The notes beneath the pieces were generated by a model. It was not told where the DNA came from and searched no databases. It saw nothing but the letters and a program-made list of their open reading frames with translations. The position numbers were made by a program, and so were the translations under genes. Shown piece after piece: positions 15,723 through 64,000 of a DNA stretch of 64,000 bases. This DNA comes from Bacteroidaceae bacterium (GTDB lineage: Bacteria; Bacteroidota; Bacteroidia; Bacteroidales; Bacteroidaceae). The stretch's first letter is position 1; every line of letters starts with the position of its first letter. Location of the stretch: contig JAGCPY010000086.1 in the NCBI GenBank assembly GCA_017965425.1, positions 1-64,000 of the forward strand, written 5' to 3'.

Positions 15723-16059
15723 AAATCCCTCAATTCCTCACCTTTTGGGATAATATTCTGAAATGGAAGCACTTGCAGGTGAGGGATTGGTGAGGGATTG
15801 GTGAGGAATAGGTGAGGGATAGTGAGGGATAGTGAGGGAACGAGGTTTCTTGTTGATTAAAATCAATTCCTCACCATCCCTCACCCATCCCTCACCGAAT
15901 TCTCACCCATAAATCATTGAATGACAATATAATGAGACGAAAGGTGAGAGATTGAGGGGTTTGGGATCAAAAAAGCAATGTATAAAAGGTGCGATGAGCC
16001 TTGTCTTGACCATTAGTCTGGAACATGTACACCTTCGACGTGGAAGGTCTATACCCTTC
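15723..16059. repeat. Dispersed palindromic element, copy B (pckA-upp spacer)
   Basis: The spacer 15481-16147 has no gene. Terminal inverted repeats AATCCCTCAATTCCTCACC (15724-15742) and GGTGAGAGATTGAGGGG (15943-15959) enclose about six tandem GGTGAGGGAT units (15778-15840) and, inverted, four CCCTCACC-type units (15866-15908). The GTGTACACCTTC hairpin module follows at 16025-16059. I see nothing recognisable in 15481-15722 beyond the pckA promoter flank, nor in 16060-16147. Confidence 0.75.
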
Positions 16060-21607: not shown

Positions 21608-21654
21608 TTGTGAGTTGAATTTTAAGGATGAACGATGAAGAATGTTTTTGGGGG

Positions 21655-21822
21655 CATCATTGCCTGTCATCTCTTGCGGGAAAACCGCATGGCACACTAT
21701 GTTTTTTTGGCATCATTGCCTGTCATCTCTTGCGGGAAAACCGCAAGACACACTATGTTTTTTCGGCTTCATTGCCTGTCATCTCTTGCGGGGAAACCGC
21801 AAGACACACTATGTTTTTGAAG
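21655..21822. repeat. Three tandem 56-bp hairpin repeats
   Basis: Units start at 21655, 21711 and 21767 (period 56). Each has CATCATTGCCTGTCATC or CTTCATTGCC..., then the hairpin TCTTGCGG-GGAAA/GAAAA-CCGCAAGA, then CACACTATG and a T run. A fourth, single copy is at 29305-29360. The third unit and the 29305 copy also share the following TTTGAAGGTARATYTRCTC flank. The period is not a multiple of three, so all plus-strand frames stay open by chance. Confidence 0.85.
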
Positions 21823-39618: not shown

Positions 39619-39650
39619 TCGAAAGAACTGTTTAATGTGATTTGGCGCAC

Positions 39651-39658
39651 CAAAAGTA
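39651..39658 (-). promoter_or_regulatory. -7 element of the hybrid regulator
   Basis: TACTTTTG on the minus strand, 33 bp before the chosen ATG; divergent from the plus-strand promoter at 39767. Confidence 0.55.
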
Positions 39659-39766
39659 CAGAAAAAGTTGTAAATATTAACACGTTTTGAGCCCTTGAAA
39701 CACATAATGTTCAAAAAATACATATTTTTTTTTGATATTTACATACCATCGTATTCATTTTGGCCG

Positions 39767-39870: not shown

Positions 39871-42800
39871 ATGAAAAAAATCTTTTCTCTATTGGCGCTG
39901 GTGCTCACGTGCGTGGGCGTGAATGCGCAATGGTGGCAGGGTCTCGAACCGGACGAGTATGCGTACAATGACAATACCGTTGTCCACGCACAACTCACGA
40001 CGAATCTGGCCAGCACCGATCTGAACATCGCCGCGTTCATCGATGGAGCGTGCCGTGCATCGGCCTATCCTGAGAGGGATGAATCAGGGATGCCCAAAAT
40101 GTCAGAGAGCGGCAAGCCTGTATACATCTTCAACGTGCGAGGCAACTTGAACACGACACCTTCCGACGAAGGAAAGGAAATCAAATTCATGCTTTTTGAT
40201 CCGAACACGGGTTTTGAGTATGAACTTAACCAAAAGCTTACCTTCGATGGTGGAACACATGGCGGCAACATCTCTAACCCGACTATTAACTTTGAGCTGA
40301 CAGCACCTGTTGGCGGCTGGTCACTCAACTTAGTCGAAGTGGAAGTGGGCAAACGTTACAATCTTGCCAACTACCTGACGGTGGAACCTGCAGGAGCTCA
40401 ACTTCCTTCCAACTTGTGGTGGAAGGTGTTCATCGATCCCGATGGTGCGCAAGACATCAGTCCATACGTCCTTCATGAGGATTCTGTCGTGACGGGTGTG
40501 TCTCCTTATGATGGTTTGACGTTGCAACTGCTTTCTCCTGGCGATCCAACAGGTTCTATGGCGGCTGGCCTCTTGGCTGAATGTATCTTCAATGTCGTGC
40601 AATATGCCACGGGCATTGAGCTGATTGAGCCCACCACCATCACTGTGAAGAAAGATGACTTTGGTGCGATGAGTATGGCCATGCAGAGAGGAACAGCTTA
40701 TAAGCTGAATCCCGAAAACGCTGTTGACACAGTTGAATGGGAGGTCGAAGACGCAACCATCCTCCAGTGGAGTGAGCGTGGCTATTATATCCCCGTTAAG
40801 GGTGGTACAACGCGCATACGCCCGTACTTTACTGATAGAAATAACAACAAGGTCTATCCTGCCAACGACGCATGGATTACCGTCAACGTCATCGTGCCTG
40901 TGGAGAGCATCGACATCGACCTCTCCCTCTTCAACGGAAAGTTCTTGGCCAATATGGGTGATACCCACCTCTACGAGCGTCTGAAACGTTTAGTAAAGAT
41001 CACGCCTCAGGATGCAGACCAGACATACACAGTTGAAGTCGAAACGCCAGGAGCCGTGACCCTCATAGGTAACACCACTCTCCATGCAGTACAACAGGGC
41101 GTGTCTACTGTCAAGGTCATTGCCAAAGGTGGCGACGACGTGACGGGTGCTCCCCTCTCAGCATCGGTTGACATTAAAGTCTTGAGTCCCCTCATCTCTG
41201 CCCAGATTCAGCAACCTACCATTTATATTCCTCTCATAGATGGAGTTGCTCAGAACATCGACGGCTATGTGCGTGACAATGTGATCTTTGATCCGAGTGA
41301 CGGTTCGAATATGGGATTCTGCTCTTTCACCCAAGATGGTACCAATTCCATCACTGCCGAGGGCGCTGGCATTGATATGGCCGGCATAATGGGTACCTTT
41401 ACCGCAGTGGCTGCCGGCACCACCACCTTCACCATCGAACTCAAATGGCCGGACTATGACAATTGGGGTGTCAATGGTGACGAGTTGCAGTACTTGACAA
41501 CACCTTATACCTTTAAGATTGTGGTGACGGAGCAGTCTACGTTGATGGGCTTCAATGTGAGTGTGACCCCCGTTGCTGCCGGACAGACTGGCACACTGAC
41601 CCTGATTCCGCAGCCTGTTGGAGCAACCTTCGAACCGGAATCCATTGTTGTTAAGATTTACAATGGGTTGGAAGGAGTTTGGGCAAACCTGATTACTTCC
41701 ACGAAGAAGTCTGCCGCCGCAGACAAGATTGTCTATGAGTTTACCTCTGCGATTCCTGGACTTATCAGAGTCGCGGCAACCGACGTGGCAGGCGCTCGGT
41801 ATACCATCAACGATGGTGCCTATCTCGAATTCGAAGTAGGCAATCCGCTTCATCTCAGCACGGGATGGCAGTGGCGCAGTAACCCATACGGTGCCATCAA
41901 GGCAGCCGATTTCGAAAAGGTCTTCACCACAGCCGCCCTTGATGAAATCCGCACCAGCAACCAGCTGCTCTATAATGACCCGTCATGGGGATTCTACGGA
42001 ACACTCACCAACTCAAGAGGTATTCTGCAGGATCAGTGCTATAAGATCAAGATGAAGGCAGAGAGAGATACCGTGCTCTTTGCGGATCAAAACCTTGTCA
42101 ACGGCACCTTCTCTGAGACCGACGGTTCCTACTCCGTGGTTCTCAAGCCCGGATGGAACTGGATTGGCTCTCCTTACCTCTTCGACCATTCGTTGAGCGC
42201 CGCCATCGAGTCCAATGAAGGCTTGCTGTCTGGTACTGTAATCATTGGCAAGAACAGTCATGTCGAGCTCAACGAACTTGGCGTCTGGGAACCCAGTGGA
42301 ATGATCTTGAAGGCTGGAGAAGGCTATGTCATTAAGAACCTTTCCAATGCAGACGTTACCCTCAACTTCCGCAGCGAACTGAGCATGACTCCTCAAAACG
42401 AAGGTGCACAGAGTGGTGTGAAAGCCTTTGGACTGCGTGACAACGTCTGGGAATATGACCACTCTCGCTTCATGAACAACATGACGATGGTGGCCACGCT
42501 CGAAGGTATCGACCATCCTGAGCAGTACAGCATCGGCGCCTTCGTAGGCGAAGAGTGCCGTGGCGAAGGCTTTGTCTCGAACGGCAAGGCATTCATCACC
42601 GTACATTGTGATGCAGGTGAGTATGTGACCTTCAAGCTCTACAACCCCAGCACCAACGAGTACAGCAACATTCACGAAGGACTGCAAGCCCAGACTCGCG
42701 TGGGTTCGCTGAAAGCTCCTTTCCGCCTGCACACTGGCAATGGAGCCGATGGCATTCAGAACCTCAACGGCAACAGCAGTAATACAGAGAGCTATGACCT

Positions 42801-42888
42801 CAGCGGTCGTCGCATCAACAGCCAGCAGCGTGGCGTAAGCATTCGCCGCCAGGCCGACGGAACCATGCACAAGGTTATTGTGAAATAA
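39871..42888 (+). CDS. Secreted 1005-aa protein with T9SS-like C-terminal tail
   Basis: I do not recognise a named family. There is a signal peptide (MKKIFSLLALVLTCVGVNAQ) and a long series of Ig-like beta domains. A domain near the N-terminus (about 38-148, with LNIAAFIDGACRASAY and IKFMLFDPNTGFEYE) is repeated near the C-terminus (about 870-953, with YSIGAFVGEECRGEGF and VTFKLYNPSTNEYSN). The end, SYDLSGRRINSQQRGVSIRR followed by a basic VIVK, matches the short sorting tails of Prevotella-type T9SS cargo. It is probably exported by the T9SS. It is the first gene of the cluster and ends in a strong terminator. Confidence 0.8.
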   Translation: MKKIFSLLALVLTCVGVNAQWWQGLEPDEYAYNDNTVVHAQLTTNLASTDLNIAAFIDGACRASAYPERDESGMPKMSESGKPVYIFNVRGNLNTTPSDEGKEIKFMLFDPNTGFEYELNQKLTFDGGTHGGNISNPTINFELTAPVGGWSLNLVEVEVGKRYNLANYLTVEPAGAQLPSNLWWKVFIDPDGAQDISPYVLHEDSVVTGVSPYDGLTLQLLSPGDPTGSMAAGLLAECIFNVVQYATGIELIEPTTITVKKDDFGAMSMAMQRGTAYKLNPENAVDTVEWEVEDATILQWSERGYYIPVKGGTTRIRPYFTDRNNNKVYPANDAWITVNVIVPVESIDIDLSLFNGKFLANMGDTHLYERLKRLVKITPQDADQTYTVEVETPGAVTLIGNTTLHAVQQGVSTVKVIAKGGDDVTGAPLSASVDIKVLSPLISAQIQQPTIYIPLIDGVAQNIDGYVRDNVIFDPSDGSNMGFCSFTQDGTNSITAEGAGIDMAGIMGTFTAVAAGTTTFTIELKWPDYDNWGVNGDELQYLTTPYTFKIVVTEQSTLMGFNVSVTPVAAGQTGTLTLIPQPVGATFEPESIVVKIYNGLEGVWANLITSTKKSAAADKIVYEFTSAIPGLIRVAATDVAGARYTINDGAYLEFEVGNPLHLSTGWQWRSNPYGAIKAADFEKVFTTAALDEIRTSNQLLYNDPSWGFYGTLTNSRGILQDQCYKIKMKAERDTVLFADQNLVNGTFSETDGSYSVVLKPGWNWIGSPYLFDHSLSAAIESNEGLLSGTVIIGKNSHVELNELGVWEPSGMILKAGEGYVIKNLSNADVTLNFRSELSMTPQNEGAQSGVKAFGLRDNVWEYDHSRFMNNMTMVATLEGIDHPEQYSIGAFVGEECRGEGFVSNGKAFITVHCDAGEYVTFKLYNPSTNEYSNIHEGLQAQTRVGSLKAPFRLHTGNGADGIQNLNGNSSNTESYDLSGRRINSQQRGVSIRRQADGTMHKVIVK

Positions 42889-42900
42889 AATCCTCTTTGG

Positions 42901-42956
42901 AGTAAGGCTTCTGGGGTGATGACGCTATCTGCCCCAGAAACCCCAGAAGCCTTACT
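42901..42956 (+). terminator. Terminator after the first cluster gene
   Basis: A perfect 17-bp inverted repeat, AGTAAGGCTTCTGGGGT (42901-42917) and ACCCCAGAAGCCTTACT (42940-42956), with a 22-nt loop and followed by TATATTTATTATTT. It can work in both directions and may separate the first gene from the rest of the cluster. Confidence 0.8.
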
Positions 42957-43012
42957 TATATTTATTATTTAATTAAGGAACGCGCACACGCGCGATAACG
43001 ACATCCTGAAAC

Positions 43013-44818: not shown

Positions 44819-44861
44819 GCAGATAATAAATGAATAATGAATCAAAGATATATATAAGGTT

Positions 44862-47800
44862 ATGATTACCGAAAAAGCCTATAAGTCCTATCAGACCCAT
44901 GAGTCCCATACGGCTCATAAGTCCCATAGCACCTTCCTGTTATTTCTCCTTTTCTCATTATTTAGTTTCTTTTCTGCTCCGCTCCGCGCTCAGGATGTGA
45001 CGGTGACGGTCACCCCGACCCAACCCATCCTGCCGCCGCAAGTGATGCTCTACATCACGGAGCCAGCCAACTATTTTAATATCTCCCTGACCAACACGGG
45101 TAAGGACATTGCCAATGTCTATCTGGTCATGCAGGTGGAGCAGGTCAACCCCAGCAGCGGACTCAGCATCACCACACCTGCCAACCGTCAGCCCAAGATG
45201 CCTATCGTGGTGCCAGCCAATGGTTCCCGCATCCTCGCTCCCGCTGAGGTACGTGGCCTCTTCAACCATATCCCGCTCAATGAAATCAAGGCACCGAACG
45301 ACCTCTTTGACAACTATACCAATGGTTCTTTCGGTCTTTTACCTGAGGGACAATATGAACTTCACTTCACGGCCTACCGTTGGGATCCTACCCTGCCTGA
45401 TCCTGTGGTAGCCAGTTCTCCTACAGGTGGTTTGGCCGTGTTCAATGTCTGTTATAAAGCACAGGCTCCTGAGTTCCTGACTCCTGCCGTTATCAGTCAG
45501 GATTTGATGGCCGTGGCCGAAATCGACCCCTTGGCACCTCAGTTCACTTGGAAAGCACCTGTTGTGGCCTGCAATCCCACGGTCTTGCAGTACACCTACT
45601 CCCTCCGCATTGTGGAGGTGTTGCCGAATCAGTTGCCGGACAACTCAATGGATCACAACCCTGTGGTTTATCAGGCGTCCAACCTTTCGACACCGATGTG
45701 CATGATACCCCAGACCGTCATCAAGCAGATGAAGGAAGGAACAACTTATGCTGCACAGGTGACTGCCGTCTCGGCCAATGTCAACAAGCAGATGCTCAAC
45801 TACGTCAGTATCGAGAACGACGGAAAGAGCACCTATAAGCTCTTCCGCCTCAAAGCCTCTGAAAAGCCGAAGGTCGTTCCCAATATCGATCAGGAACGTA
45901 AAAATGACGATGTTGATGAAGAGCTAAAAAAGAAAGAAGAGGAAGACAAGAATAAGGAAGATGAAGAAGGCTTCATCCGTTTCGGTAAATCCGAAGGTGT
46001 GGGTACAGAAGACAAGGACTCTCTCTTCACCTACCGTAATCCAGTCCTGCTGGCACCTTCCTTCGTTGAAGGTGGCGTGCGGCAAGTCTTCACCAACGAC
46101 CCGATTGAGGTCAAATGGGATCCCGTTTGGCATATCGGCGGTGCGGGTAAGAATCCCGACGATAACAAGTTTGAGTATGAAGTACGCCTCTATAAGGGCG
46201 ACGAGGAAGCCGACCGCGAGGAAACGATGAAGACCGAACCCATTTGGAAACTTCGTACCAAGGAGCTCACCACTACCATCGAATGGGAGGATATTGAGAA
46301 AAAAACCAAAGTCGGCGACTATCTCCTGCTCGAAGTCAAGCCCATCATCACCAAGGGTAAGAGCATCGCCTTCACAGAGGACGACAACATCAATGACTTT
46401 GGCCTCAACGAGCGATTGAGCAGGAAGTACTTCCAGTGCGAGGCCAGAGTGGAAATCAATGACAAGAACCCGACATCCAAGTCTGCACAGGATTTGAAGG
46501 GCAAGGTGGTAGCCATCGGCGAATACTTCCTCACCATCGACGACATCAAGGGTTCCGGTGATATGGGTTTCTCGGGCTCCGGTCGTGTGGAATGGAAGCC
46601 TTTCGGTGCCAGCATCATGGTCTGCGTGACCTTTGATAATCTGAAAATCAATAAGTCCGACATCGTTTATGAAGGCATCTGCGTGAGTGCCAAGGCACCT
46701 GAGATGTTGAGTAGTATGGCGGTCGTTGACAAACTCTTTAGTGACTGGGGTATTGACAACCTGATAGGAGAATCCGGCCTGCCTTATGCCGACAAGTTAC
46801 AGACCGAGGCCACTGGCAAGATCAAGAGCATTGCTGAGAAAGCCAACATCGGCGACTACTATGCAAAGATTCAGAAAGGCAAGGATCTCTTCAAGCTTCT
46901 CACCTCTGGCAAGATGGACAAGCTTTATATGCCTGTCAAGTTCCCGACGGAAGTTCTGCCCAGCAAGTTCGATGCGGTAGACCTTCAGATTGTGGAAATG
47001 AAGTTTGCTGCCACCTATGCTACCATGAACATCATGGGCGAGGCCATCATGCCCGAATGTGATGTCTTGAAGAGCAAAGTGCTCCTTTTTGGCGCGCCGC
47101 GCATCTGTATCTCCCCCAACAAGTTCTTACCAGACGATGGACAAATCGCCCTGTTAGGTGACTTCACCCTGACGCCCTCCGATATGGAGATAACTTTCAA
47201 GGCACCGAAGGATCCCATCACCCCCAAGGACGGTTGTTATATTTCATGGAATTCAACCGAGAAAGGTTCCAAGCTGGAGCTCCTCGGCATTGATGCCGAC
47301 ATGAAAGTCGAAGGAATGTACAAGGAGGTCAACGGTAAGCTCACCAACGATCTTGCCGTCATGAACCTCCGTGCATCCGTCGGCAGTTGGGACGATCTCC
47401 TTGTGGATAACATTTCGGTTGAGGACTTCCAACTCAAGGATCTTCCTGGATGGACTTTCCAGGCACAGGATGTGGTTTATGACCACTCTGACTACCGCAA
47501 CTCCGACAAGATGGGCGAGTTCCCTAGCGGTTACGACAAGAAGGAAAGCGAATGTGATAAAGATATCAATAAATGGCATGGTTTGCACATCGGCAAGGTG
47601 GGCGTGGCCTTCCCCAAGTCTCTGGAATTAGGCGATATCGATGAAGAACACAAGGACAAACGCCTCTGGGTCGGTGCCAAGGAGATGTTCATCGACAAGT
47701 CCGGCGTCACCGTCATCATAGGTGCCAATAATGTCTTCGAAGCCAAAGAAGGTACCCTCGGAGGTTGGGGCATCAGCCTCGATGAGGCCCACGTCCAGAT

Positions 47801-56800: not shown

Positions 56801-58376
56801 CAGCATCAAGAGCAAGCTGGGCTTCATCGAGAAGACCGACGACACCAATGGCGACTTCGTGGCTTCAGACTCGAAGTCGGTGCAAGCCATCTGGACGAAG
56901 GACAACAAGACGCTGACGTTCTACTATGGTAAGCAATACAAGAAGGATGGTAAGTTCAATGGAAAGACCATCACCGAGGTGTGGAGCGTCCGCTCCGGCT
57001 ACACTCCTTGGCGTGATACCGTGAAGGGCATCATGACCACCGCCACGATTGATCCGTCGATGGCAGACTATGGTATGACCAGCTATTCCTATTGGTTCGC
57101 CGATTGTGCCAAGCTGACCACCATCAACGGCCTTACGAATCTGAAAACGAGCAGTTGCACGAGCTACAGCTATATGTTCTCAGGCTGTTCGGCCCTTACG
57201 ACCCTCGATGTCAGCAAGTTCATGACCGATTGGTCTCTATCGCAGTCTACGCGCATCAACCTGTCCGGCATGTTCTACAATTGCGAGTCGCTGAAATCAT
57301 TAGATGTCAGCCAGTGGACAGAGACCAAACGTGTGTCTAGCATGTCCTATATGTTCAAGGGCTGTAGCTCGTTGACGAAACTCGACATGAGCAAGTGGAA
57401 CACCCAGGAAGTCACAACCATGTGCAGTATGTTCAGCGGCTGTACAGATCTCACGAGCATCTCCTTCGGCAGCAGTTGGAATACCTCGAAGGTGACCGAC
57501 ATGAGCTATATGTTCATGGACTGCGAGAGCCTGAAGTACATTCCTGTCGAGTACCTGAACCCGCAGAGCGTGACCACCATGAGGGCGATGTTCAAGAACT
57601 GCTACGATTGGGCGGCATCCTTTGGACCGTATGCGCCTTGGAAGTGGAACGTCGAAAAGGTGAAAGACATGAGCGAAATGTTCTTCGAGTGCGAGAGCGT
57701 CACCTCGTTGAACCTGACCGAGTGGAAGACGTCGAGCGTGACCAATATGTCCAATATGTTTGCCTACTGTAAGAAGATTACAGACCGCAGCACAATCAGC
57801 CATTTACTTGATGTATCCAAACTCGATGTGTCGAAGGTGACGGATATGAGTGGAATGTTCAAAGGCTGCGGCGGCATCCGCGATCTGGACCTGAGCCAGT
57901 GGAACACCAACTCACTGACGAACATGAAGGAAATGTTCTACTACTGCTCCAAGCTGGAAACCATCGACCTCAGCCACTTCGACCTCTCCAAGGTCACCAA
58001 TATGTATCAGGCGTTCTATAACTGCACCAGCGCCAATACCGTCGACCTGCGAGTGTCCAAGGTTTGGAAGGCCAGTACGAAGAATTGTCTCAACTATGCC
58101 TTCAGCTATGTGAAGGGACATGTCCTCTTGAACCACAATGCCCAGATTACTGGCGAAAGCAAGTATGCCTGCTCAAACTACTCCAATCAATTCTTGATCA
58201 GAGACTGTGATTCGGGTACCTACAAGACCGACATGGTGAAGACATTGAAGAACCTTGGGTCCAAGACGTACAAAGCCCTCCCCAATGCTACCCAGGAATG
58301 GAAAGATAGAGATGGCAAGATTTGGTGGTACACCATCAATTCAAGAAATGGTGCGTACCAAACGGTATATGAATAA
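44862..58376 (+). CDS. Giant 4504-aa surface protein: scaffold fused to five BspA-type repeat modules
   Basis: A signal peptide (hydrophobic run ending APLRAQ) follows an odd His/Ser-rich N-region. Residues about 45-340 look like tandem Fn3/Ig-like domains with an ITEPANYFNISLTNTGKDI strand pair. Residues about 345-380 are a Lys/Glu-rich linker. Residues about 520-1400 are long repetitive beta sequence; 1480-1510 is coiled-coil-like; about 1650-1790 holds WYAMGQLYAYLAAELGVHI and LPNPTWMEGS, wording I recall from long hypothetical Bacteroidota proteins sometimes labelled TANFOR. From about 2744 to the end, five modules each carry a header and several DUF285 repeats of the MSYMFxGC type (about 35 in all). 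No T9SS tail is visible at the C-terminus. The stop overlaps the next frame. Confidence 0.85.
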   Translation: MITEKAYKSYQTHESHTAHKSHSTFLLFLLFSLFSFFSAPLRAQDVTVTVTPTQPILPPQVMLYITEPANYFNISLTNTGKDIANVYLVMQVEQVNPSSGLSITTPANRQPKMPIVVPANGSRILAPAEVRGLFNHIPLNEIKAPNDLFDNYTNGSFGLLPEGQYELHFTAYRWDPTLPDPVVASSPTGGLAVFNVCYKAQAPEFLTPAVISQDLMAVAEIDPLAPQFTWKAPVVACNPTVLQYTYSLRIVEVLPNQLPDNSMDHNPVVYQASNLSTPMCMIPQTVIKQMKEGTTYAAQVTAVSANVNKQMLNYVSIENDGKSTYKLFRLKASEKPKVVPNIDQERKNDDVDEELKKKEEEDKNKEDEEGFIRFGKSEGVGTEDKDSLFTYRNPVLLAPSFVEGGVRQVFTNDPIEVKWDPVWHIGGAGKNPDDNKFEYEVRLYKGDEEADREETMKTEPIWKLRTKELTTTIEWEDIEKKTKVGDYLLLEVKPIITKGKSIAFTEDDNINDFGLNERLSRKYFQCEARVEINDKNPTSKSAQDLKGKVVAIGEYFLTIDDIKGSGDMGFSGSGRVEWKPFGASIMVCVTFDNLKINKSDIVYEGICVSAKAPEMLSSMAVVDKLFSDWGIDNLIGESGLPYADKLQTEATGKIKSIAEKANIGDYYAKIQKGKDLFKLLTSGKMDKLYMPVKFPTEVLPSKFDAVDLQIVEMKFAATYATMNIMGEAIMPECDVLKSKVLLFGAPRICISPNKFLPDDGQIALLGDFTLTPSDMEITFKAPKDPITPKDGCYISWNSTEKGSKLELLGIDADMKVEGMYKEVNGKLTNDLAVMNLRASVGSWDDLLVDNISVEDFQLKDLPGWTFQAQDVVYDHSDYRNSDKMGEFPSGYDKKESECDKDINKWHGLHIGKVGVAFPKSLELGDIDEEHKDKRLWVGAKEMFIDKSGVTVIIGANNVFEAKEGTLGGWGISLDEAHVQIIQNDFDNCGFTGQINVPILKRQKGSEHEGEFGNVKYTCQIRDLSNPKNEKGKKNTKDKPTRLSYIFLTEQVEPLDFSFLVAQAELDPVQTYFLVDAYDDDKKPGEIKTQIELCLGGDIGIGLIDNANAWLKEKTESLPLQLKIPELHFTKMRFSNVSESDDWVINDKRVEDKRKARDEKAQAIHDAALKILVEGKEFNVGTTQEPFYIDLGEWSFSSAPKHLGPFSFNLTEFKPNFESKNKKVTLEVGGSIGLCEVLDVGAKVLISAKVDIPDIKKPKTWSISDGDVEFKKLELDLDWTALHFHGELEATTEPDKGYSGALDIEIVGFFKLDCKGGYYEHKKDEKDNNDRDFAWGYFMASIESGAGIHVDPVVINRISGGFFFNCRPTKGKNKFDGDPKAAYGNIGVAFGLGLSTTAGEQALKADLDMLVVYDSYNKCLSTFMLNGKVEAVGGMIKAECSLIYENEKNTAHETVNRYLCLNLTVEAGMDSNALLDKVKGMNASLEKLQGKLDEFQGEIDGVYQRVKNASSGMGALSGDYENPNSDGTEVKEKNKEQSKEFEASAGSVKVSLEFKVTWVKDKVAYKTPKWHLYLGEPDKAHRCTFTYLKFKSPICSVDIGADGYLCLGNELPNGGALPDIPDKITKFLAGEKSSTTDMGADLGKAQRSRKAAAKALLDPNSLNGGVMVGASAWGSINIDLGLLYGSLEAIAGFDAALVNYGDMAYCMNSGKAMGYKGWYAMGQLYAYLAAELGVHIHIGNFINEKISILDAGIGGVLEMGLPNPTWMEGSARIKISLLGGLCKINKKFDFSAGDHCVPFKGNALDGFEMFQSVSHGSDSLYQALLDPTFAISVDDAKHMTFTTQSSIGSHYRLLDPSWEAELADKDETTEEDIEKAMALNASRTYVFDMDQDLNYYGMKKGVRLFDLGTAATDLIKNGKGTKDELDKAMRTNTYWTTAQNAQDDKPLFKNLSDYVSNIMYERSGTVAETSMIMSSPELNSSVTDYLADTWQSRIDEVITTGTLTVKDGKKNVQLTALEYNPTEVNCSFREQKGTTFHLTGMNLKPGHSYVLFLMADAYEIDNGRRVWCEYIKDGKPKRIHWRQTKAWFFRVKSNTEDKIITDSLRDLEPYIALAYPSYNGTRVLDNHGEGDVRAYFDDIMKPTIALNRDIRTSLPANKMKWVLEGYTAAGDTLKPQTRNAVYQQNGNCINLEPSSPFKPFDEFTAAAKGKSNYDFSQEKYRLKLLYTYRHKELVTGQRAKFMKDPYYDRGDSTVALVDMPIITLPHDVTLNRGTFTDSWKVVTQKENTELLAYTKPFVGATMDSIPNILYESDYTSKGLTDEDFVFKNTKFESANLPYRLIDPYMYFAYLGKWVFIGDREIGTYAFDNTPVKFGSESLIYNYNGTVVNSEFLKVDKKKGEKNKTLLELRDQMYSVWNTWNYNDGNHPKYPLPSVGSTIGGVTANNQDGKTSTVTPIDINHVYTVKLDYSYVFEDLVKDYVAVYNVADQLSTKLRSASRDVLNKFYNRMNIEKGSCNSKLFNTNFNYDLKQWNNLHRGQYIEIEDRGYNVRVPYYQLPLIFGGCFGSDNDVAVYGAPTSNPQTLDKSYRTLGASIGEDDLSSGDGDPEYARLSKRWDTQASNLLFFRLCGATKGDKIYGYDNYLFSVYKELYDNNYPSSYHVNWDDFQRNKALEQVTRFKARIYRVDGYDIDKGLYVVTDKNKGRGGGPWEESVNIGMETSYIKNLADMYKSVEEQDAYRETHYDKQIPQVLWCNDTKTLIFLCTSQIWKAGDKYPSGGKDMKGTVTWVYTEDRVKDKNWRNYTIMQNCTNVYVNQSFGLRTYEGTDDLKGFFEDFKKLTTVKNVGVLTSASTKDMSYMFKGCEKLTDVDFDNKYYTTWTKSVTSMSHMFDGCKSLKKLDLTQFNTSKVRGMTSMFEGCESLTSVDLSSFTGESLMGTSYMFYGCKNLSSIDISTIGGVELTSSVSRMFEGCTALRTLHMDILDPRQMTEWEMRDMFKGVSNRLTCYYYSGLHQYIVKQIPGTKKAVADQRAKVVYGRCSNGDEALFFLFTPNKFKVGYSYTITPQYVDLDGSMSNSDIWNKKYPETEYNVTVKGVWQGDDVTNTWGAPQWSTGASTVKYVYIDKAFSSAKPASTYSWFKNFSNVRAFHGLCYLNTELVTDMSYMFQNCSQVERLGLGNFDSGGFRVDTKFQVANVTKMTSMFQGCSKLEELSMYKWDVSKVTTTYNMFNGCSKLTFTDYRTKWPLNDFKNVTDMSYMFANCSSLENTDPLYGLRIATDKVTDMSRMFSGCSSMKVIPYFTSTEKVTKMNGMFSSCSNLQKADFTPYKTDNLKQVERMFDYCSSMEEINLGNNTLSQVTSATDMFRNVNKPSYIYLPGDATRIINVCSASTFPNRIILSPAYAIVLRSGSYFEMMLYGKRTTLKSGDRCDIYPYEGYTVEKVLSSTNIQNSTDRPEWENWYSIYPKIKKIVIHSSFSDVPLLNAKMYFADMSELTEIKGLGNLDVSKAKDVSYMFSGCPKLETVDGTIYLTSATNAASMFWGCKSLKKIPVSFSTSDVLIRTDGMFQGCSSVSEIGSSYNYPRLGNVENMSYMFSGCSNLYNLAISRLNTSKATTMEGMFSGCSSLSESSLKGIKSFDTKNVTSMAYMLKGTQMSELDLSTWNTGAVTNMSGMFADCSQLRKVQLGSNWTLSNLKSYTTTAGFSGVHDLAVLVPAAKLSSIKSAFTDKQGFKVGSTGQFYDENVKGTAQVIWTRSNKTLTFYYGMPVGSTFNNLTVTQKWTGDDVLSNSNTKAKWIDAVKGDVTTVTFDKTFSEARPTTTKGWFNGCKKLTTINGLENLCTCYSVTDMSYMFNECEGLTELSFDNSRPLWGTSKVTNMSSMFSGCKNLKKLVLTRFNTEKVTNMFSLFYDLRGIEKLDVSMFNTSSVTTATYLFYYMTNLRTLIVGSNFTFPKLSSTAYAAFSGVKKCEITATSTVINSVKSSIKSKLGFIEKTDDTNGDFVASDSKSVQAIWTKDNKTLTFYYGKQYKKDGKFNGKTITEVWSVRSGYTPWRDTVKGIMTTATIDPSMADYGMTSYSYWFADCAKLTTINGLTNLKTSSCTSYSYMFSGCSALTTLDVSKFMTDWSLSQSTRINLSGMFYNCESLKSLDVSQWTETKRVSSMSYMFKGCSSLTKLDMSKWNTQEVTTMCSMFSGCTDLTSISFGSSWNTSKVTDMSYMFMDCESLKYIPVEYLNPQSVTTMRAMFKNCYDWAASFGPYAPWKWNVEKVKDMSEMFFECESVTSLNLTEWKTSSVTNMSNMFAYCKKITDRSTISHLLDVSKLDVSKVTDMSGMFKGCGGIRDLDLSQWNTNSLTNMKEMFYYCSKLETIDLSHFDLSKVTNMYQAFYNCTSANTVDLRVSKVWKASTKNCLNYAFSYVKGHVLLNHNAQITGESKYACSNYSNQFLIRDCDSGTYKTDMVKTLKNLGSKTYKALPNATQEWKDRDGKIWWYTINSRNGAYQTVYE
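44880..44931 (+). repeat. CATAAGTCCCATA-type repeat in the giant gene's 5' end
   Basis: Degenerate direct units of about 12 bp (ATAAGTCCTATCAG, CCCATGAGTCCCATA, CTCATAAGTCCCATAG) encode the His/Ser-rich KSYQTHESHTAHKSHS just before the signal peptide. The wording is that of a repeat usually seen between genes, so the true start may lie downstream or the repeat has been absorbed. Confidence 0.55.
53094..58373 (+). repeat. Five tandem DUF285 (BspA-type) modules inside the giant gene
   Basis: Module headers start near 53105 (VLWCNDTKTLIFLC), 53950 (VVYGRCSNGDEALFF), 55055 (IVLRSGSYFEMMLYG), 56100 (VIWTRSNKTLTFYYG) and 56885 (AIWTKDNKTLTFYYG). Each is followed by a beta-rich spacer with a W-rich strand pair and then roughly 4-11 repeats of about 24 residues: L-x-L-x-x-(W/F)-N-T-S-x-V-T-x-M-S-x-M-F-x-x-C. 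The repeats are diverged enough in DNA to be stable. Confidence 0.85.
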
Positions 58377-58395
58377 TAAAAGAAAGCATCTGTAT

Positions 58396-60687
58396 ATGAA
58401 ATGTAAATCCATATTGTTGAGCGCCCTCTTCCTGACCTGTGGCCTGACGGCCACGGCTCAGGTCGCAGACACCACGGGTATTAATCCTCATACAGCGGTC
58501 AAACAGCCACGGGTGTTGCCGCGCCTGACAACTAAAATCCACCTCCAGACACGCGCCTATGGCGACAGCATTGTGCTGCGCTGGGCCACCGAGGACTTCG
58601 TGTCCTACAACTATCTGGCCCGCCTCGGCGTCAACGTGCTGCGTGTGCCGCGTGGCATGGTGGGTGACACGTTGGATGTCCCCGAGTTCCGCATCGACAC
58701 GATGGCCTACGAGCTGCTGCCCCTCACCTTGGAACAGTTCCGCAAGAAGTATGCCCCCACCGACAGCAGCGCCTACATCGCAATGGGGTTGCTCTATGGT
58801 GATAAGGAGAACGTACACAAGGCGGGTGAAGGCTTCGCCTCTGAGACGCAGAACCGAAGCGACGATCAGGACATCTCCTACGGCTTCGCCATGTTGGTGG
58901 CCGACTGGCGCAAGGACCTGGCCACAGACATGGCTGTGCGCTTCACCGACAAGGATGTGGAACCCGGACGCATCTACGACTACTACGTCCAGCCCACGGT
59001 CTGGGAGAATGGCGGTAAGCTCATCTTTGAGCCGGGCGTGGCAGAGGGCGTGGCAAACGTGCCTTACGTGCCCGAACCTTACTTGCCCCACATGAAAGAC
59101 TCCGTCGCTTCCAATCACTCCGTGCAGTTAGGCTGGTGGGACGGTTTGCACTCCAGCTTTGAGGTGGAACGCCGACAATCGGCGGATCTGAAGGGACAGG
59201 CCGTCGACGACACCTGGCAACGCATCACCCGCAAGCCCTACGTGCCGATGGTGCAGCAGCCTGAGGGCGAGGACTACTGCCTTGTGGTCGACTCCGTGCC
59301 GCAGTTGGGACTCTGGAACTATCGCATTTTTGGTTACGATCCTTTCGGTGAACTGACGGAACCTGCCGAGCGAAGCATCATGGTCATGGACCTTGACCCG
59401 CCGACACCAGCCAACCTGAAGTACATCGTCATCGAGCGTCCCGACGACAACGACCTCATGTCAAAGGTCATCGCACACGTCGTCTGGGAGAAGGACTCCA
59501 TCGAAGAGGATATGGCTGGCTATCGCATCTTCTACAAGCCGATGCGCGACAACGGCAACGGATGGCAAGCCATGAACTTCGACCTCATCGCACCCCAGGA
59601 CACGTTGTTCTCCATCGACATGACGGGCAAGCGTACGGGTATGATGTATATCTCGGCCTACGACGAGACAGGCAACGAGTCGAAGTCCTTCATGCAGCAA
59701 ATCCGTCTGACGGACTATAAGGCTCCGGCCGTACCCGACAACTTCCGTGCCGAAGTGCGGAAGATCGACATCGAGACAGACACGGCTGTGCTGCGTACTA
59801 AGTGGGCTTACGTAGACCTCTACTGGCAGCCCAAGGCCGAAGACGATGATATCGACTACTTTGATATTGCCTTTGCCAACGACAGTACCCACGAGTTCCT
59901 CGTCCGCAACGAAGGTGGTATCCGCCAGTCTGCCTACACCGACTCCCTCTCGCTGAATGCCAACCAGAAGTATATCTATTACAAGGTGCGTGCGATCGAC
60001 CAGAGCACGAACATCGGTGATTGGAGCGATTGGATTCAGGTGGAACGTCCACACATGACACCGCCGACGCAGCCTCACTTGGGCGAGTCCAGTCACTCCA
60101 ATGAGCATGGTATGCACATGGAATGGGTCGTGGGAGCAGATGCCGACATGAAAGAACATGTCCTCTACCGCCGTCTCGGTGAGGATGGCGAGGAAGAGGT
60201 GCTTGCCCGCTACGATGCCGACTCGGTGAAAGCTCACAACAACATCATCATCGTCGACGACAATCCGCCCTACGTGCAACGCGGACGCTACTATTACTGG
60301 ATGTCGAGCGAGAACGCTTCGCCTTTCATCAGCCATAGCATGGCCGTGAGCTGGAAGCATCAGGGACCGCGTTTTATCGCTGTGGATACCAAGCTCGAAG
60401 GAACCTTCCGTAGCGACGAGAAAGCCGTCGCCCTAGGATGGGGACTTGATCCCACGTCCCTGCCCGAAGGCGACTGGTATTGGGCCATCTTCCGCAAGGC
60501 TCCCGGTTCCGACAAGTTCGTCTACTACATGTCTGCCGAGCAGAATGCCCGCACCTATACCGACCATAGCCTCAGCGCCGGTGAATCGGCATCGTATTAT
60601 ATCCGCCTGCAGTTCGAAGACGGACGGTTCAGTCCCAACTCGAACGAGGTCACCATCACCTATCAGGAACAACCCACAAATCCATGA
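58396..60687 (+). CDS. Secreted fibronectin type III protein
   Basis: From the ATG at 58396 the 763-residue protein has a clean signal peptide (MKCKSILLSALFLTCGLTA). A start at 58369 overlaps the giant gene stop as ATGAATAA and is possible; the longer frame from 58255 is read from the giant gene and is not used. At least three Fn3 domains are visible in the middle and C-terminal parts (strand pairs such as TPANLKYIVIERPDDND, VYYKVRAIDQS-type endings, and a final SYYIRLQFEDGRFSPNSNEV). No enzyme motif. It is translationally linked to the giant protein and to the next lipoprotein, so they probably act together at the surface. Confidence 0.8.
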   Translation: MKCKSILLSALFLTCGLTATAQVADTTGINPHTAVKQPRVLPRLTTKIHLQTRAYGDSIVLRWATEDFVSYNYLARLGVNVLRVPRGMVGDTLDVPEFRIDTMAYELLPLTLEQFRKKYAPTDSSAYIAMGLLYGDKENVHKAGEGFASETQNRSDDQDISYGFAMLVADWRKDLATDMAVRFTDKDVEPGRIYDYYVQPTVWENGGKLIFEPGVAEGVANVPYVPEPYLPHMKDSVASNHSVQLGWWDGLHSSFEVERRQSADLKGQAVDDTWQRITRKPYVPMVQQPEGEDYCLVVDSVPQLGLWNYRIFGYDPFGELTEPAERSIMVMDLDPPTPANLKYIVIERPDDNDLMSKVIAHVVWEKDSIEEDMAGYRIFYKPMRDNGNGWQAMNFDLIAPQDTLFSIDMTGKRTGMMYISAYDETGNESKSFMQQIRLTDYKAPAVPDNFRAEVRKIDIETDTAVLRTKWAYVDLYWQPKAEDDDIDYFDIAFANDSTHEFLVRNEGGIRQSAYTDSLSLNANQKYIYYKVRAIDQSTNIGDWSDWIQVERPHMTPPTQPHLGESSHSNEHGMHMEWVVGADADMKEHVLYRRLGEDGEEEVLARYDADSVKAHNNIIIVDDNPPYVQRGRYYYWMSSENASPFISHSMAVSWKHQGPRFIAVDTKLEGTFRSDEKAVALGWGLDPTSLPEGDWYWAIFRKAPGSDKFVYYMSAEQNARTYTDHSLSAGESASYYIRLQFEDGRFSPNSNEVTITYQEQPTNP

Positions 60688-61535
60688 GCCTCATGAGAAA
60701 ATTTGCTAAGACACTTCGCCTGCTTTGCTGCACCTCCCTTCTCGTGCAGCTCGCCAGTTGCGGCCTGCTCGACTTCGACGTCGATAGCGACTTCTCGAAG
60801 ATAGCCGCCGAAATGTCGCTCAACTACGATACCGTCCATGTGCTGGTCGGCGACACCGTGGACCTGCGACCGTCGTTTAAACCAGATACACTGAACCTGC
60901 GCGATGTCTATGTGTCAACGTCTGATACAGACGTGGTGGTGGTTGATATGCTGACGGGACGAATTTCTGCCGTCGGCGTGGGATGGGCCAAGCTCTATGT
61001 GCAGTCGGTGTCGGCGCGCTTGCAGGACAGCTGCACCGTCCATGTCATGGAGACGTGGGTGGACAAAACGGCCATCTATCCTTACGAAACGGTGTTCTAT
61101 GCCGAGGTAACCGTCAACGGGAAGTCCCTGACCGAGGCGGACATGGAGAACATCAAGGTGGGTGCCTTCGTGAACGACGAGCTTCGCTGCTTAGGCGAGT
61201 TCCTCAATATTCACGGAGTCGGACGAATGGTGTTCCGTGTGGGAGGCGAAGACACCTTTGGCAATATCTATCCGTCTGCGACGCAGGAAGACGAGAACGT
61301 CGATGAGGAGGACGAGGACGAATCCATTTTTGGCGACAAGGATGTCTTTGATGATGACGAAGAGGAGGAAGAGGAACAGGAGAACGTGTTCGTTCCCTCG
61401 GACAAACCGCTGCCCATCGTCTTCCGCTGCCACGACAGAAAGAGAATGAAGCTCTATGAGTGCGCTGTCAAACCCGTCTTTGATGGCGGAAGGCAAGGTG
61501 AGCCGTCGAAACCCTATAAAATAGTATTCAAGTAA
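60684..61535 (+). CDS. Lipoprotein with an Ig-like domain and an acidic run
   Basis: Its ATG overlaps the previous stop (ATGA). The N-terminus ends in LLVQLASCG, a lipobox, so the mature protein is lipid-anchored. Residues about 45-125 resemble a bacterial Ig-like (BIG2) domain (VLVGDTVDLRPSF, VYVSTSDTDVVVV, GRISAVGVGWAKLYV). Near 205-240 there is a run almost entirely of Asp and Glu, a candidate calcium- or polycation-binding segment. The last part returns to beta strands (YKIVFK end). Family unknown; 283 residues. Confidence 0.75.
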   Translation: MSLMRKFAKTLRLLCCTSLLVQLASCGLLDFDVDSDFSKIAAEMSLNYDTVHVLVGDTVDLRPSFKPDTLNLRDVYVSTSDTDVVVVDMLTGRISAVGVGWAKLYVQSVSARLQDSCTVHVMETWVDKTAIYPYETVFYAEVTVNGKSLTEADMENIKVGAFVNDELRCLGEFLNIHGVGRMVFRVGGEDTFGNIYPSATQEDENVDEEDEDESIFGDKDVFDDDEEEEEEQENVFVPSDKPLPIVFRCHDRKRMKLYECAVKPVFDGGRQGEPSKPYKIVFK

Positions 61536-61551
61536 CTTAAAATATACATCT

Positions 61552-64000
61552 ATGAATAATCATCATCAGAGAGGTTGGGGATGGATCCTCGTTTTATTCG
61601 CTATACTCTTGACGGGCTGTACCCTCTCGATGGAGGAATGGCAAGTGGCAGAGGAGGATAAAGGCTTCGACGAACCTGAGACCGTTGAGTATGAATACGG
61701 AACCCTCACCTATCAATACAAGGAGGGCGTACGTTCCATCACCGAGAATGTCCAGCAGTATATCATCCGTTACGAGAACCTGCCGGAAGAGCATATCATC
61801 CTCTATTTCATGGATAATACGCCCAAGGACTGGGTACCCCAGAAAGGGGATCTCCTGACGTCCATGTGTACGCTTACGCTGCCTTTCGGACTGAACCACC
61901 GTGTGACCTCTGTGGTCAAGGCCGATGGCATGTACAAGGTGGAGTGTGAACCTGCCACACGTGATGATATCTTTGAGGATCTTGTTTTTGAATTCGACGC
62001 AGATTATCATGTCCCTAACGTTGCTGCCTACGACAGTCTTGCCCTGGACAGCCTTGGCATCGATCCCAACGACCTCATAATGGAGGATTTCTCCATGATG
62101 GAGGAACACTATGGCCAAGGGGCCATGACGCGTGCCGGATACCATTCGAGACTTCGTTGGCGTGATACACCTGCGTTCCGGAAACTGCGGGAGGCTGGAC
62201 TCGTCAGCCTCGGAGGAACACGTGCGGGCGATGATGATGATGATAAACCTAAAACAACAGAAGATGATAAGGACGAGTCTCAGGTATTCTTCCTGAGTAA
62301 TCTCGGGATTACGGTGAACTTCGGGCAGAATGTCTCGCTCTCCCTGGGCGGATCCATCACCACGCATGAGGTAGAGCATGTGTGGATGCATGAGGACAAG
62401 AAGAAGGATTACAGGAAGCAGGTAACAACCACCAGTAACTATACTGATTATGATGTGGACGTCCGCTTGGGAGTCAGTAAGAATTTCGCCAAAGATCCAG
62501 AGAAGTGGAATCCCAAGGATCTTCAGGAAATGATGGGGATTCTGAAAGTAGTGAAAGATAATCTTTCGGGCTTGCCGAAAGAGCTGAAGCAACATAAAAA
62601 ACCTCTTACCTTTGTCAATATCCGTGCCCCGATACCTGGTACGGTGTTCTTCCTCGTTCTCAAATTAGAGGGAGGTGTCACGCTCGAAGGAGGAGCGCAT
62701 GGCTATTTCGAGGCCACTGTTCATGACCCTGTTACGAAATCAACGTATGTCTACGATAAGGGAAATGAAAGCAGCATACCCCGCAAAAATGCTTCCAAGG
62801 ATGAAAAGGACAAGAAGGGTATCGTCAAGGCGGGGTACACCGAGTTGAAAGATATGTCGCTGGTGGGCGACATGAAGCTTGAAGTATGGATTAGACCTGC
62901 CATTGGTGTTGAGCTGTCTGCAACAGGATTGGGTTGTGACTTGGGTTTCAAGGCATCGGTTGGCGCGAAGGCCAAGGTTGATATCGCATCGTTCACGGGT
63001 TCAAAAACGGTGGTGATGCCCTCCACACCGGATGGATTGGAATTCTACCTCTCAGGTGAATTGGCGGCAACTGCATACTGGTCTCCGGCAGGATTCAATC
63101 TCTTTGAAGCCAAATATACCTTCTGGAATCCTTATAAGAAATTGGGAGAGATTATCTTTTCGCCCGTCGTCAACAAGGGCAACGTGAATAGTTCCATTAA
63201 AGAGCTTGGCGACGACAAACGGAAATTCCACGTGGATTATAGTTTCAGCGAAACCTGGCTTGGTGTCCGGCCCATCAGCAAACATGTTTTCTTACCGCGA
63301 CTGAGGGTGTATCATGGGGCATTCACGGGGAAGTGCTTAGAGCTCAAGACTGGCGATGGCCTTACAGAACAAGAACTGGCGAAGCGCACCACCTATGAGT
63401 TCGACTTTGACGATGATGATCTGTTGAGCAAGGAGGCAACATATATCTGCGTGCCATGTATCTATGACTTCAATGATGACAGGACGTATGAATTCCGGGA
63501 TGCAGCCAAGGTCTTTGGCGACGGAGGACCCATCATCAAGTTCCTGGATTTCAAACAGCGGTACGGAACTACTGCAAGTATGTATTTGAGTCAAAAGACG
63601 GATCTTTTCTTTGATCAGGAAATAGTTGATCAGTATTACAAGGTATTCCGTGATCGATTCGGACTCAAGAAAGGCGATGAGAAGTACGTGAGATTCTTTG
63701 AGTTTGGCGCAAAGTACGAGGTCAAGAACATCAATTTGTATAAGAAGTGGGGACTGAAGGTGAAGATATGTGTACATTCTAGTGGCAGGACTCTGATAGA
63801 GAAAGATATAGATGTGGTCACCTATGATGAAGACACAGGTTCGGAAAATTCTAAAACTCCTGGTAAGAAAACAGCCGTCATCTCTTTTGTTACCAACTAT
63901 GACGATGATTTGGATGTGTATCTGACGCCCTATGTCTATGACATAAACGGTGAACGTACAGACTTCCCGACCACAGGACCAAAGTTCCTTGATGGCCATT
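61552..64000 (+). CDS. Large lipoprotein, 3' end beyond the window
   Basis: The frame opens MNNHHQRGWGWILVLFAILL and reaches the lipobox LLTGCT, then stays open for 816 codons to the window edge. It shows many beta strands (VFFLSNLGITVNFGQNVSL, TVFFLVLKLEGGVTLEGG) and an Asp-rich stretch (RAGDDDDDKPKTTEDDKDE). The section GGVTLEGGAHGYFE and the LGCDLGFKASVGAKAKVDIA strand series recall the giant protein's middle region, so a common origin is possible. It follows the previous gene by 16 bp, the end of one operon-like set. No family recognised. Confidence 0.8.
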   Translation, partial: MNNHHQRGWGWILVLFAILLTGCTLSMEEWQVAEEDKGFDEPETVEYEYGTLTYQYKEGVRSITENVQQYIIRYENLPEEHIILYFMDNTPKDWVPQKGDLLTSMCTLTLPFGLNHRVTSVVKADGMYKVECEPATRDDIFEDLVFEFDADYHVPNVAAYDSLALDSLGIDPNDLIMEDFSMMEEHYGQGAMTRAGYHSRLRWRDTPAFRKLREAGLVSLGGTRAGDDDDDKPKTTEDDKDESQVFFLSNLGITVNFGQNVSLSLGGSITTHEVEHVWMHEDKKKDYRKQVTTTSNYTDYDVDVRLGVSKNFAKDPEKWNPKDLQEMMGILKVVKDNLSGLPKELKQHKKPLTFVNIRAPIPGTVFFLVLKLEGGVTLEGGAHGYFEATVHDPVTKSTYVYDKGNESSIPRKNASKDEKDKKGIVKAGYTELKDMSLVGDMKLEVWIRPAIGVELSATGLGCDLGFKASVGAKAKVDIASFTGSKTVVMPSTPDGLEFYLSGELAATAYWSPAGFNLFEAKYTFWNPYKKLGEIIFSPVVNKGNVNSSIKELGDDKRKFHVDYSFSETWLGVRPISKHVFLPRLRVYHGAFTGKCLELKTGDGLTEQELAKRTTYEFDFDDDDLLSKEATYICVPCIYDFNDDRTYEFRDAAKVFGDGGPIIKFLDFKQRYGTTASMYLSQKTDLFFDQEIVDQYYKVFRDRFGLKKGDEKYVRFFEFGAKYEVKNINLYKKWGLKVKICVHSSGRTLIEKDIDVVTYDEDTGSENSKTPGKKTAVISFVTNYDDDLDVYLTPYVYDINGERTDFPTTGPKFLDGH

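Follow-up and report, generated by a model that had tools for sequence, protein, structure and literature searches.

A six-gene exported-protein cassette of Prevotellaceae combining a probable outer-membrane barrel with a giant relative of TANFOR proteins

Organisation of the cassette

The window analysed here is a stretch of 64,000 nucleotides from a Bacteroidaceae genome (assembly GCA_017965425.1, contig JAGCPY010000086.1, positions 1 to 64,000). Its list of open reading frames (ORFs) contains, from position 39871 to the window end, six co-directional long ORFs on the + strand, which encode a cargo protein, a probable outer-membrane barrel, a giant protein, an Fn3-type protein and two lipoproteins (lipoA and lipoB). 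The original prediction of six exported-protein genes running in one direction is thereby borne out. This cassette is best explained as the Prevotellaceae version of a Bacteroidota-wide module made of the barrel, a giant TANFOR-type protein and the Fn3-type protein. Its features are the following:

39871..42888, + strand: cargo protein, 1005 residues, probable substrate of the type IX secretion system (T9SS)
about 42751-42885, + strand: probable short C-terminal sorting domain (CTD) of the cargo, from its motif order by eye
42901..42956, + strand: hairpin between the cargo and barrel genes, perfect 17-nucleotide stem, 22-nucleotide loop
43013..44818, + strand: probable outer-membrane barrel, 601 residues, core partner of the giant (family alignments)
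44862..58376, + strand: giant TANFOR-related protein, 4504 residues (translation; synteny)
44988..45863, + strand: TANFOR-type N-terminal domain (N-domain) of the giant and the region after it (hhalign)
46959..50531, + strand: conserved core of the giant, residues 700-1890, where the giant profile matches distant relatives
53415..58040, + strand: tip of the giant, DUF285/PARCEL and BspA-type leucine-rich repeats (PF03382, TIGR02167)
58369..60687 (start 58369 or 58396), + strand: Fn3-type exported protein, core partner (profile; distances)
60684..61535, + strand: lipoA, 283 residues, carrying a Big_2-like domain and sharing its C-terminal module with the cargo (lipobox, Pfam)
61552..64000, + strand: lipoB, 833 residues (lipobox), overrunning the window, its frame being closed by the contig sequence at 64053

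By eye, the first four proteins have signal-peptide-like N-termini and the last two carry lipobox cysteines. Spacing is tight from the barrel gene onward, and 124 nucleotides separate the end of the cargo gene from the start of the barrel gene. The hairpin located in this gap is perhaps an element uncoupling cargo expression. Of the homologous gaps scored (79, counting duplicates), 25 have stems of at least 10 perfect pairs, with mostly unrelated sequences. Promoter and terminator scans gave a signal no higher than that of shuffled sequence. Two frame overlaps had been predicted. The four-nucleotide overlap of the Fn3 and lipoA genes (60684-60687) is present, and that of the giant and Fn3 genes (58369-58376) hinges on the choice of ATG 58369 as the Fn3 start; ATG 58396 is equally good by eye and gives no overlap, the frame being open from 58255 or later to 60687.

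Copies and conservation of the cassette

The genome of the window harbors three cassette copies, on contigs C85, C4, and C59. The C4 copy possesses all six genes in the order of the window, with BLASTP identities of 59% for the barrel, 43% over 1867 columns for the giant, 36% for the Fn3 protein, 33% for lipoA, 33% over the last third for the cargo, and 25% for lipoB. Its giant is 2401 residues long, and the window giant is homologous to it over residues 43-1886 and 2012-2573. In the C59 copy, the giant has 4130 residues, lipoA is followed by a gene of ~160 residues and then by one with a ~1050-residue frame, and the lipoB match is only weak (E 2.6e-4). The organism carrying these three cassettes is Prevotella-like. 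Three or four copies per genome are found in G000 (the genome of the window) and G043, and such multiplicity suggests a repertoire of surface arms in Prevotellaceae.

Homologous loci were obtained by scanning genome contigs with the barrel alignment, the best 80 of 128 loci being kept. Their source records are metagenome-assembled genomes of Bacteroidales, Bacteroidaceae, Prevotellaceae, and Prevotella, many of them from rumen or gut, and the isolate Hallella seregens ATCC 51272 (cassette in L101). For gene order, 93 loci were scored, eight of which repeat an already-counted barrel, leaving 85 distinct loci; each count takes only the loci whose contig leaves room. The cargo gene lies directly upstream of the barrel gene in 87 of 88 loci (80 of 81 among the distinct ones), and the giant directly downstream of it in 92 of 92 (84 of 84). 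Further along, the Fn3 gene follows the giant in 49/55 loci (45/51), lipoA follows the Fn3 gene in 15/16 (13/13), and lipoB follows lipoA in 6/10 (4/8). Among the six failures of the giant-Fn3 order, three have a giant split in two frames (L068, L133, L141), two are ORF-picking artefacts in which the Fn3 gene is present (L101, L139), and the last is a reduced cassette with cargo, barrel, a 500-residue giant, lipoA, and no Fn3 gene (L124). The four exceptions at the lipoB position are of the C59 type. In this second cassette type (L046-L048, L050), a gene of ~160 residues follows lipoA and lipoB is replaced, where the stretch allows, by a longer exported protein (1077 residues in L046).

Co-occurrence was also examined in 61 same-genus genomes, presence being defined by strong full-length matches with limits set after seeing the tables. 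The giant is found in 13 genomes, the Fn3 protein in the same 13, the barrel in 12 of them, lipoA in 14, and lipoB in 9, with Fisher p values of 4e-8 to 1.5e-13. The only giant-bearing genome devoid of barrel (G026) has giants beginning at contig edges, and another (G025) has a strong lipoA match and no strong match to the other cassette families. With a looser limit (E<=1e-3), partial stretches match too, and the Fn3 protein is counted in 36, lipoA in 76, lipoB in 21, and the barrel in 21 of 101 genomes. Furthermore, pairwise distances computed from 33 loci, a few of them duplicates, are correlated between giant and Fn3 protein (rho 0.865), barrel and giant (0.724), and barrel and Fn3 protein (0.535), with 0 of 999 permutations as high.

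Because of the second six-gene copy and the synteny counts, the cassette is more than a chance assembly, and comparison of sequences confirms the six genes as one conserved exported-protein unit. This holds for the Prevotellaceae-type loci; phylum-wide, only barrel, giant, and Fn3 protein are retained (see below). The synteny, same-genus, and 395-genome counts exclude that the orthologs are scattered separately among relatives with no co-occurrence.

The giant and its TANFOR kinship

TANFOR (TIGR02542) proteins were described as polymorphic toxins by Jana, Salomon and Bosis in 2020 (PMC7073777). Most of the six proteins had been predicted to be of unknown family, which for the giant is not wholly so: profile comparison identifies it as a divergent relative of TANFOR proteins, with a homologous N-terminal domain. 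Using hhalign, the N-termini of 25 Prevotellaceae giants align with seven TIGR02542-found N-termini with a probability of 99.6 and an E of 5.6e-24 over 273 columns, these seven references scoring 27-38 bits with TIGR02542, below its cut-off of 67. At E<=1e-3, a profile built from their N-termini matches 38 of 47 Prevotellaceae giants, as well as many long ORFs beside distant barrels, including the giants of an Emticicia (E 2.7e-51) and a Runella plasmid (6.4e-48). Reciprocally, the giant profile matches the N-terminus of proteins with sub-cut-off TIGR02542 matches (L146_9, L148_3, L152_4) and, through the core (residues 700-1890), the distant L148_3, L152_4, and L053_2. A search of the PDB with the core profile returned only a keratin match (E 0.065), and a PDB sequence search with the C4 giant returned no convincing relative.

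The barrel and its partnership across Bacteroidota

The 601-residue protein is probably an outer-membrane barrel, as judged from its sequence character and from the C-terminal Phe/Trp of its family. A terminal Phe or Trp is the usual end of outer-membrane barrels, and among 43 complete distant relatives, 32 end with Phe and two with Trp. The "large barrel" of the original prediction is therefore kept as a probable barrel, although 601 residues is no remarkable size. Neither Pfam nor NCBIfam gives trustworthy support for the barrel label, and a PDB sequence search with the barrel returned no convincing relative. A match to HMUD2, below cut-off, was rejected as chance.

The distribution of the barrel was compared with that of the N-domain (profile A12, 32 rows) in 395 Bacteroidota genomes, the two draws being taken as identical since handles and totals agree. 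A limit of E<=1e-20 keeps 77 of the 112 genomes with a barrel and 89 of the 127 with an N-domain. At this limit, all 77 genomes with a barrel possess a TANFOR-type N-domain; among the remaining 318 genomes, 12 have an N-domain without a strong barrel and 306 have neither, although absences may be misses, as 3 (barrel) and 6 (N-domain) first-look candidates were scored per genome. The N-domain lies within 20 kb of 85 of 97 strong barrels, and within 3 kb of 67 of them. Forty distant flanks were fetched, 38 of which contain the barrel ORF; within three co-directional genes, the giant is found in 30 of these and the Fn3 protein in 20, and the order barrel-giant-Fn3 occurs in 16. A search of 54 distant loci gave no homolog of the cargo, lipoA, or lipoB at E 1e-4 or better. 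Sequence comparison thus points to a phylum-wide unit consisting of a three-gene core (barrel, giant, and Fn3 protein), the other genes being clade-specific.

Four plasmid records matched barrel relatives, and three of them were examined. The Emticicia plasmid pEMTOL03 carries an SprB-repeat protein (CTD-like tail by eye, no TIGR04183 match), a barrel, a 2719-residue TANFOR-type giant with a WHH nuclease at its C-terminal end, and an immunity-type gene of the SMI1/KNR4 family. This order resembles the cargo-barrel-giant order of the window, the nuclease standing where the window giant has repeats. The Runella plasmid encodes a TPR protein and a response regulator, a barrel, a giant, an Fn3 protein, a PKD protein whose N-terminus is lipoprotein-like, and a protein annotated as T9SS cargo.

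The three plasmids (L227, L228, and L229, from Emticicia, Runella, and Bergeyella) are typed as non-mobilizable, and in Bergeyella the genes near the barrel relative seem split into many short ORFs. Separately, genomes of family f63 encode proteins of ~905-935 residues, usually one match per genome, which have only a stretch of ~80 residues in common with the barrel.

Diversity of the giant tips

The repeats of the window giant match PF03382 (DUF285, E 2.2e-144) and TIGR02167 (E 7.1e-106), with 29 repeat motifs in residues 2857-4358 and 20 TIGR02167 stretches. They form tandem ~25-residue repeats, as expected of a DUF285/PARCEL protein. The window tip belongs to the same repeat family as the DUF285/PARCEL and BspA-type surface repeat proteins (PMC2996958), but here the repeats end a TANFOR-type giant within a multi-gene cassette. 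At least three DUF285-type motifs are found in 13 other giant ORFs, and none in the C4 giant. The C59-type giants (L046 and L048 scanned) carry LRR_4 arrays, and those of L041 and L080 have helical-looking ends by eye. Overall, the C-terminal ends vary by branch and may be a nuclease domain, leucine-rich-repeat (LRR) arrays, helical-looking tails, or nothing past the core. Since two of the three giants of the window's genome carry LRR arrays toward their C-termini, the predicted adhesion-type role is plausible. Frames of 905, 1959, and 1694 residues with DUF285 repeats also occur outside the three cassettes of this genome, on contigs C60, C56, and C87, and are a possible source pool for the tip.

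The kinship with TANFOR proteins raises the alternative of polymorphic-toxin delivery, in which the LRRs would bind a receptor or serve as a spacer, and competitor bacteria would be the target of the extreme C-terminus or of a domain that escapes recognition. The likeness to the published TANFOR toxins (PMC7073777) extends to the homologous N-domain, the large size of the exported proteins, the CTD-type cargo and Fn3 neighbours, and the T9SS-bearing hosts, and that article proposes toxin delivery for TANFOR proteins. Moreover, toxin-bearing relatives exist near the same kind of barrel: besides the Emticicia WHH nuclease with its SMI1/KNR4-family neighbour, one of 26 distant C-termini (L151) has a nuclease domain, Col-Pyo DNase (26 of 29 candidates were used, three being dropped as non-giants). 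In Prevotellaceae, however, no toxin family was detected at E<=0.01 in the last 500 residues of 54 giants (for L068, whose frame is split, the first half was used), nor at E<=0.05 in seven longer C-termini; Pfam recognizes LRR families in a few of the 54 ends and otherwise chance-level matches. The gene following the giant is, in the 49 of 55 loci mentioned above, a long Fn3 gene and not a small immunity-type gene. The window giant further differs from TANFOR toxins in its LRR tip, in the ~600-residue barrel partner and lipoproteins added by the cassette, and in lying beyond the reach of TIGR02542. Toxin delivery is thus quite unlikely for the Prevotellaceae cassette.

Cargo, Fn3 protein, and lipoproteins

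The cargo is the only one of the six proteins resembling T9SS CTD cargo, and the predicted T9SS-type cargo is kept as probable for this first gene only. By eye, its tail shows the motif order of short CTDs published for Prevotella intermedia (PMC11969387), and does not match the standard model, TIGR04183. This model matches 17 of 45 homologous cargo tails at E<=0.1, the 45 being taken from about 98. A match of the cargo to RNA cyclase, below cut-off, was rejected as chance.

An ordinary T9SS adhesin locus is another possible explanation: the giant would be a T9SS substrate via a non-standard signal, and the barrel only a PorP/SprF-like anchor. The translocon SprA/Sov is encoded in the window's genome (2680 bits, over cut-off; the search of T9SS components covered SprA/Sov), and a CTD-type cargo gene is upstream of the barrel in nearly all loci, as counted above. 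NCBIfam contains PorP/SprF and PorV models. Of the 80 barrels, 70 were used for alignment and model scan, and none matches such a model at E<=0.1, so membership in these families was rejected. Likewise, the three giants scanned with NCBIfam (window, Emticicia, and Runella) have no CTD model match. T9SS substrates and Fn3 domains are found near TANFOR genes, the former enriched, according to PMC7073777, in which T9SS export of TANFOR proteins is a hypothesis only, and the SprB-SprF pair offers a precedent (PMC9143113). On balance, this explanation is unlikely.

Pfam supports the Fn3 label of the window protein only weakly (E 0.018), but the family profile matches PDB chains with E of 6.4e-6 to 7.5e-4. 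A fragment of chitinase A1 is among these chains, as are receptor tyrosine phosphatases, all of which are Fn3 structures. The protein is 770-810 residues long, and no relative was found in a phage collection. For the two predicted lipoproteins, the lipobox cysteine is invariant in 14/14 aligned lipoA rows and 8/8 lipoB rows (Cys23). LipoA has a Big_2 match of 22.7 bits for a cut-off of 22.8, and its profile also matches the cargo gene at 39913-40281 (E 7.4e-11). A PDB sequence search with lipoB returned no convincing relative. A canonical surface-lipoprotein export signal, in which the lipid cysteine is closely followed by a polar or basic residue and then acidic ones, known as C-X-K-(D/E)2-X at its optimum in C. 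canimorsus and as SDDDD in B. fragilis, was sought in lipoA and lipoB and not clearly found.

A putative TANFOR-type display module

The conserved module and the TANFOR kinship of its giant are established by sequence comparison. The best reading of the cassette, with a probability of roughly 0.55, is that of a TANFOR-type display module in which the barrel would export or anchor the giant, the C-terminus of which would be an exchangeable tip. Sec would take the cassette proteins across the inner membrane. Inserted in the outer membrane, the barrel would hold and perhaps export the giant via its TANFOR/core region, after which the long C-terminal part would project outward. In the window giant, the LRR tip may bind host, feed-particle, or bacterial surfaces, and in toxin-bearing relatives the nuclease would occupy the corresponding end. 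The Fn3 protein may be tied to the giant as its scaffold or chaperone. The cargo may be a T9SS-secreted partner, and lipoA and lipoB membrane-anchored accessory pieces, lipoA having a module in common with the cargo.

Analogy with SprB-SprF and PG1035-PorP helps the proposed export or display by the barrel, the adhesive nature of the repeats, and the structural roles of the Fn3 protein and lipoproteins. The sprB and sprF genes are neighbours. In both precedents, a surface protein is paired with an outer-membrane barrel, type B CTD proteins being held by PorP-like barrels (PMC9143113). The cassette differs from them by the absence of a CTD model on the window giant and of PorP/SprF matches among the scanned barrels.

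Several observations weigh against the display-module reading. TIGR02542 itself matches nothing in the window's genome, and the window giant not even at E 0.5, which is why intermediates were used for the TANFOR comparison; it matches eight of 296 Bacteroidota genomes, all under the 67-bit cut-off, and neither the Emticicia nor the Runella giant at E 0.01 in the NCBIfam scan. With no CTD model on the window giant, sequence assigns it no route over the outer membrane. At E<=1e-3, the barrel and N-domain overlap in only 94 of 112 barrel genomes, 18 genomes with weak barrels being devoid of N-domain, and 33 of the 127 N-domain genomes being devoid of barrel (250 have neither); the weak barrel matches are mostly short stretches of proteins of 800-950 residues. 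Furthermore, loci found through the barrel supplied 18 of the 32 A12 rows, favouring the overlap to some degree, and eight of 38 distant barrels have no neighbouring giant in the fetched stretch, some for contig reasons. Cargo distances track those of the other families less closely (0.42-0.50). The giant end is not freely variable in Prevotellaceae, since in 35 of 58 giants at least half of the C-terminal part is common with at least 10 others. The acidic residues of lipoA and lipoB mostly start at about +5 after the lipid cysteine, off the published export-signal position. Finally, barrel-giant contact, surface exposure, binding, and a physical complex are inferred from sequence.

A broader and more tentative proposal, possible though clearly less probable than the display module in itself, is that TANFOR-type giants all over Bacteroidota have in the barrel their own outer-membrane conduit and anchor, which would form a two-partner-like export pathway separate from the main T9SS translocon. 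Depending on its exchangeable tip, this system would carry toxins in some lineages and act as an adhesin arm in Prevotellaceae. No description of the barrel-TANFOR partnership was found in open-licence papers, and the word "barrel" is absent from the main text of PMC7073777. Within the literature searched, the predicted "undescribed" status accordingly stands for the partnership of barrel and Fn3 protein, for giants without toxin, and for the accessory genes of Prevotellaceae, and falls for the giant family. The barrel is a concrete candidate partner for TANFOR export, which the 2020 description left as a hypothesis (PMC7073777). This export becomes directly testable because strong barrel matches coincide with the N-domain in 77/77 genomes, usually adjoining it. 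The same chassis would serve Prevotellaceae giants without recognised toxin, some of them with LRR tips.

Regulator and other features of the window

The gene adjoining the cassette is divergent from it:

36778..39723, - strand: TPR-histidine kinase-response regulator-AraC hybrid regulator, 981 residues (Pfam domains)

Among 51 loci leaving 2.5 kb of room, 18 have a full-length homolog of this regulator (aligned over more than 500 residues) within the two upstream genes. Sixteen are immediately adjacent to the cassette, and 11 are divergent and seven co-directional. All six scored loci with a barrel at least 80% identical to that of the window (L068-L071, L074, L075) have the regulator next to the cassette and divergent from it, as does L077, whereas L076 (barrel 68% identical) lacks it. 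Other loci are flanked by TPR-AraC proteins without kinase (three scanned: L080, L097, L116). Control of the cassette by the hybrid regulator is possible, and this neighbouring protein of TPR-AraC type may switch the unit.

Hybrid regulators of this kind are often found beside glycan loci. Their presence next to part of the loci, the many carriers from rumen and gut, and one weak match to the carbohydrate-binding CHB_HEX among the 54 giant ends (E 0.0016) would fit a complex that captures glycans or nutrients, in which the barrel would be the transporter and the exported proteins would provide the binding subunits. Such a complex is nevertheless very unlikely, as Pfam detects no TonB-dependent receptor, SusD-like, or carbohydrate-active module on the six window proteins and barrel relatives occur also in fresh-water, spring, and soil lineages.

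Outside the cassette, the window contains two tandem repeats: a 56-bp unit in three near-identical copies (95% matches) at 21653-21818, and an 11-bp unit, GGTGAGGGATT, in 5.8 copies at 15778-15839.

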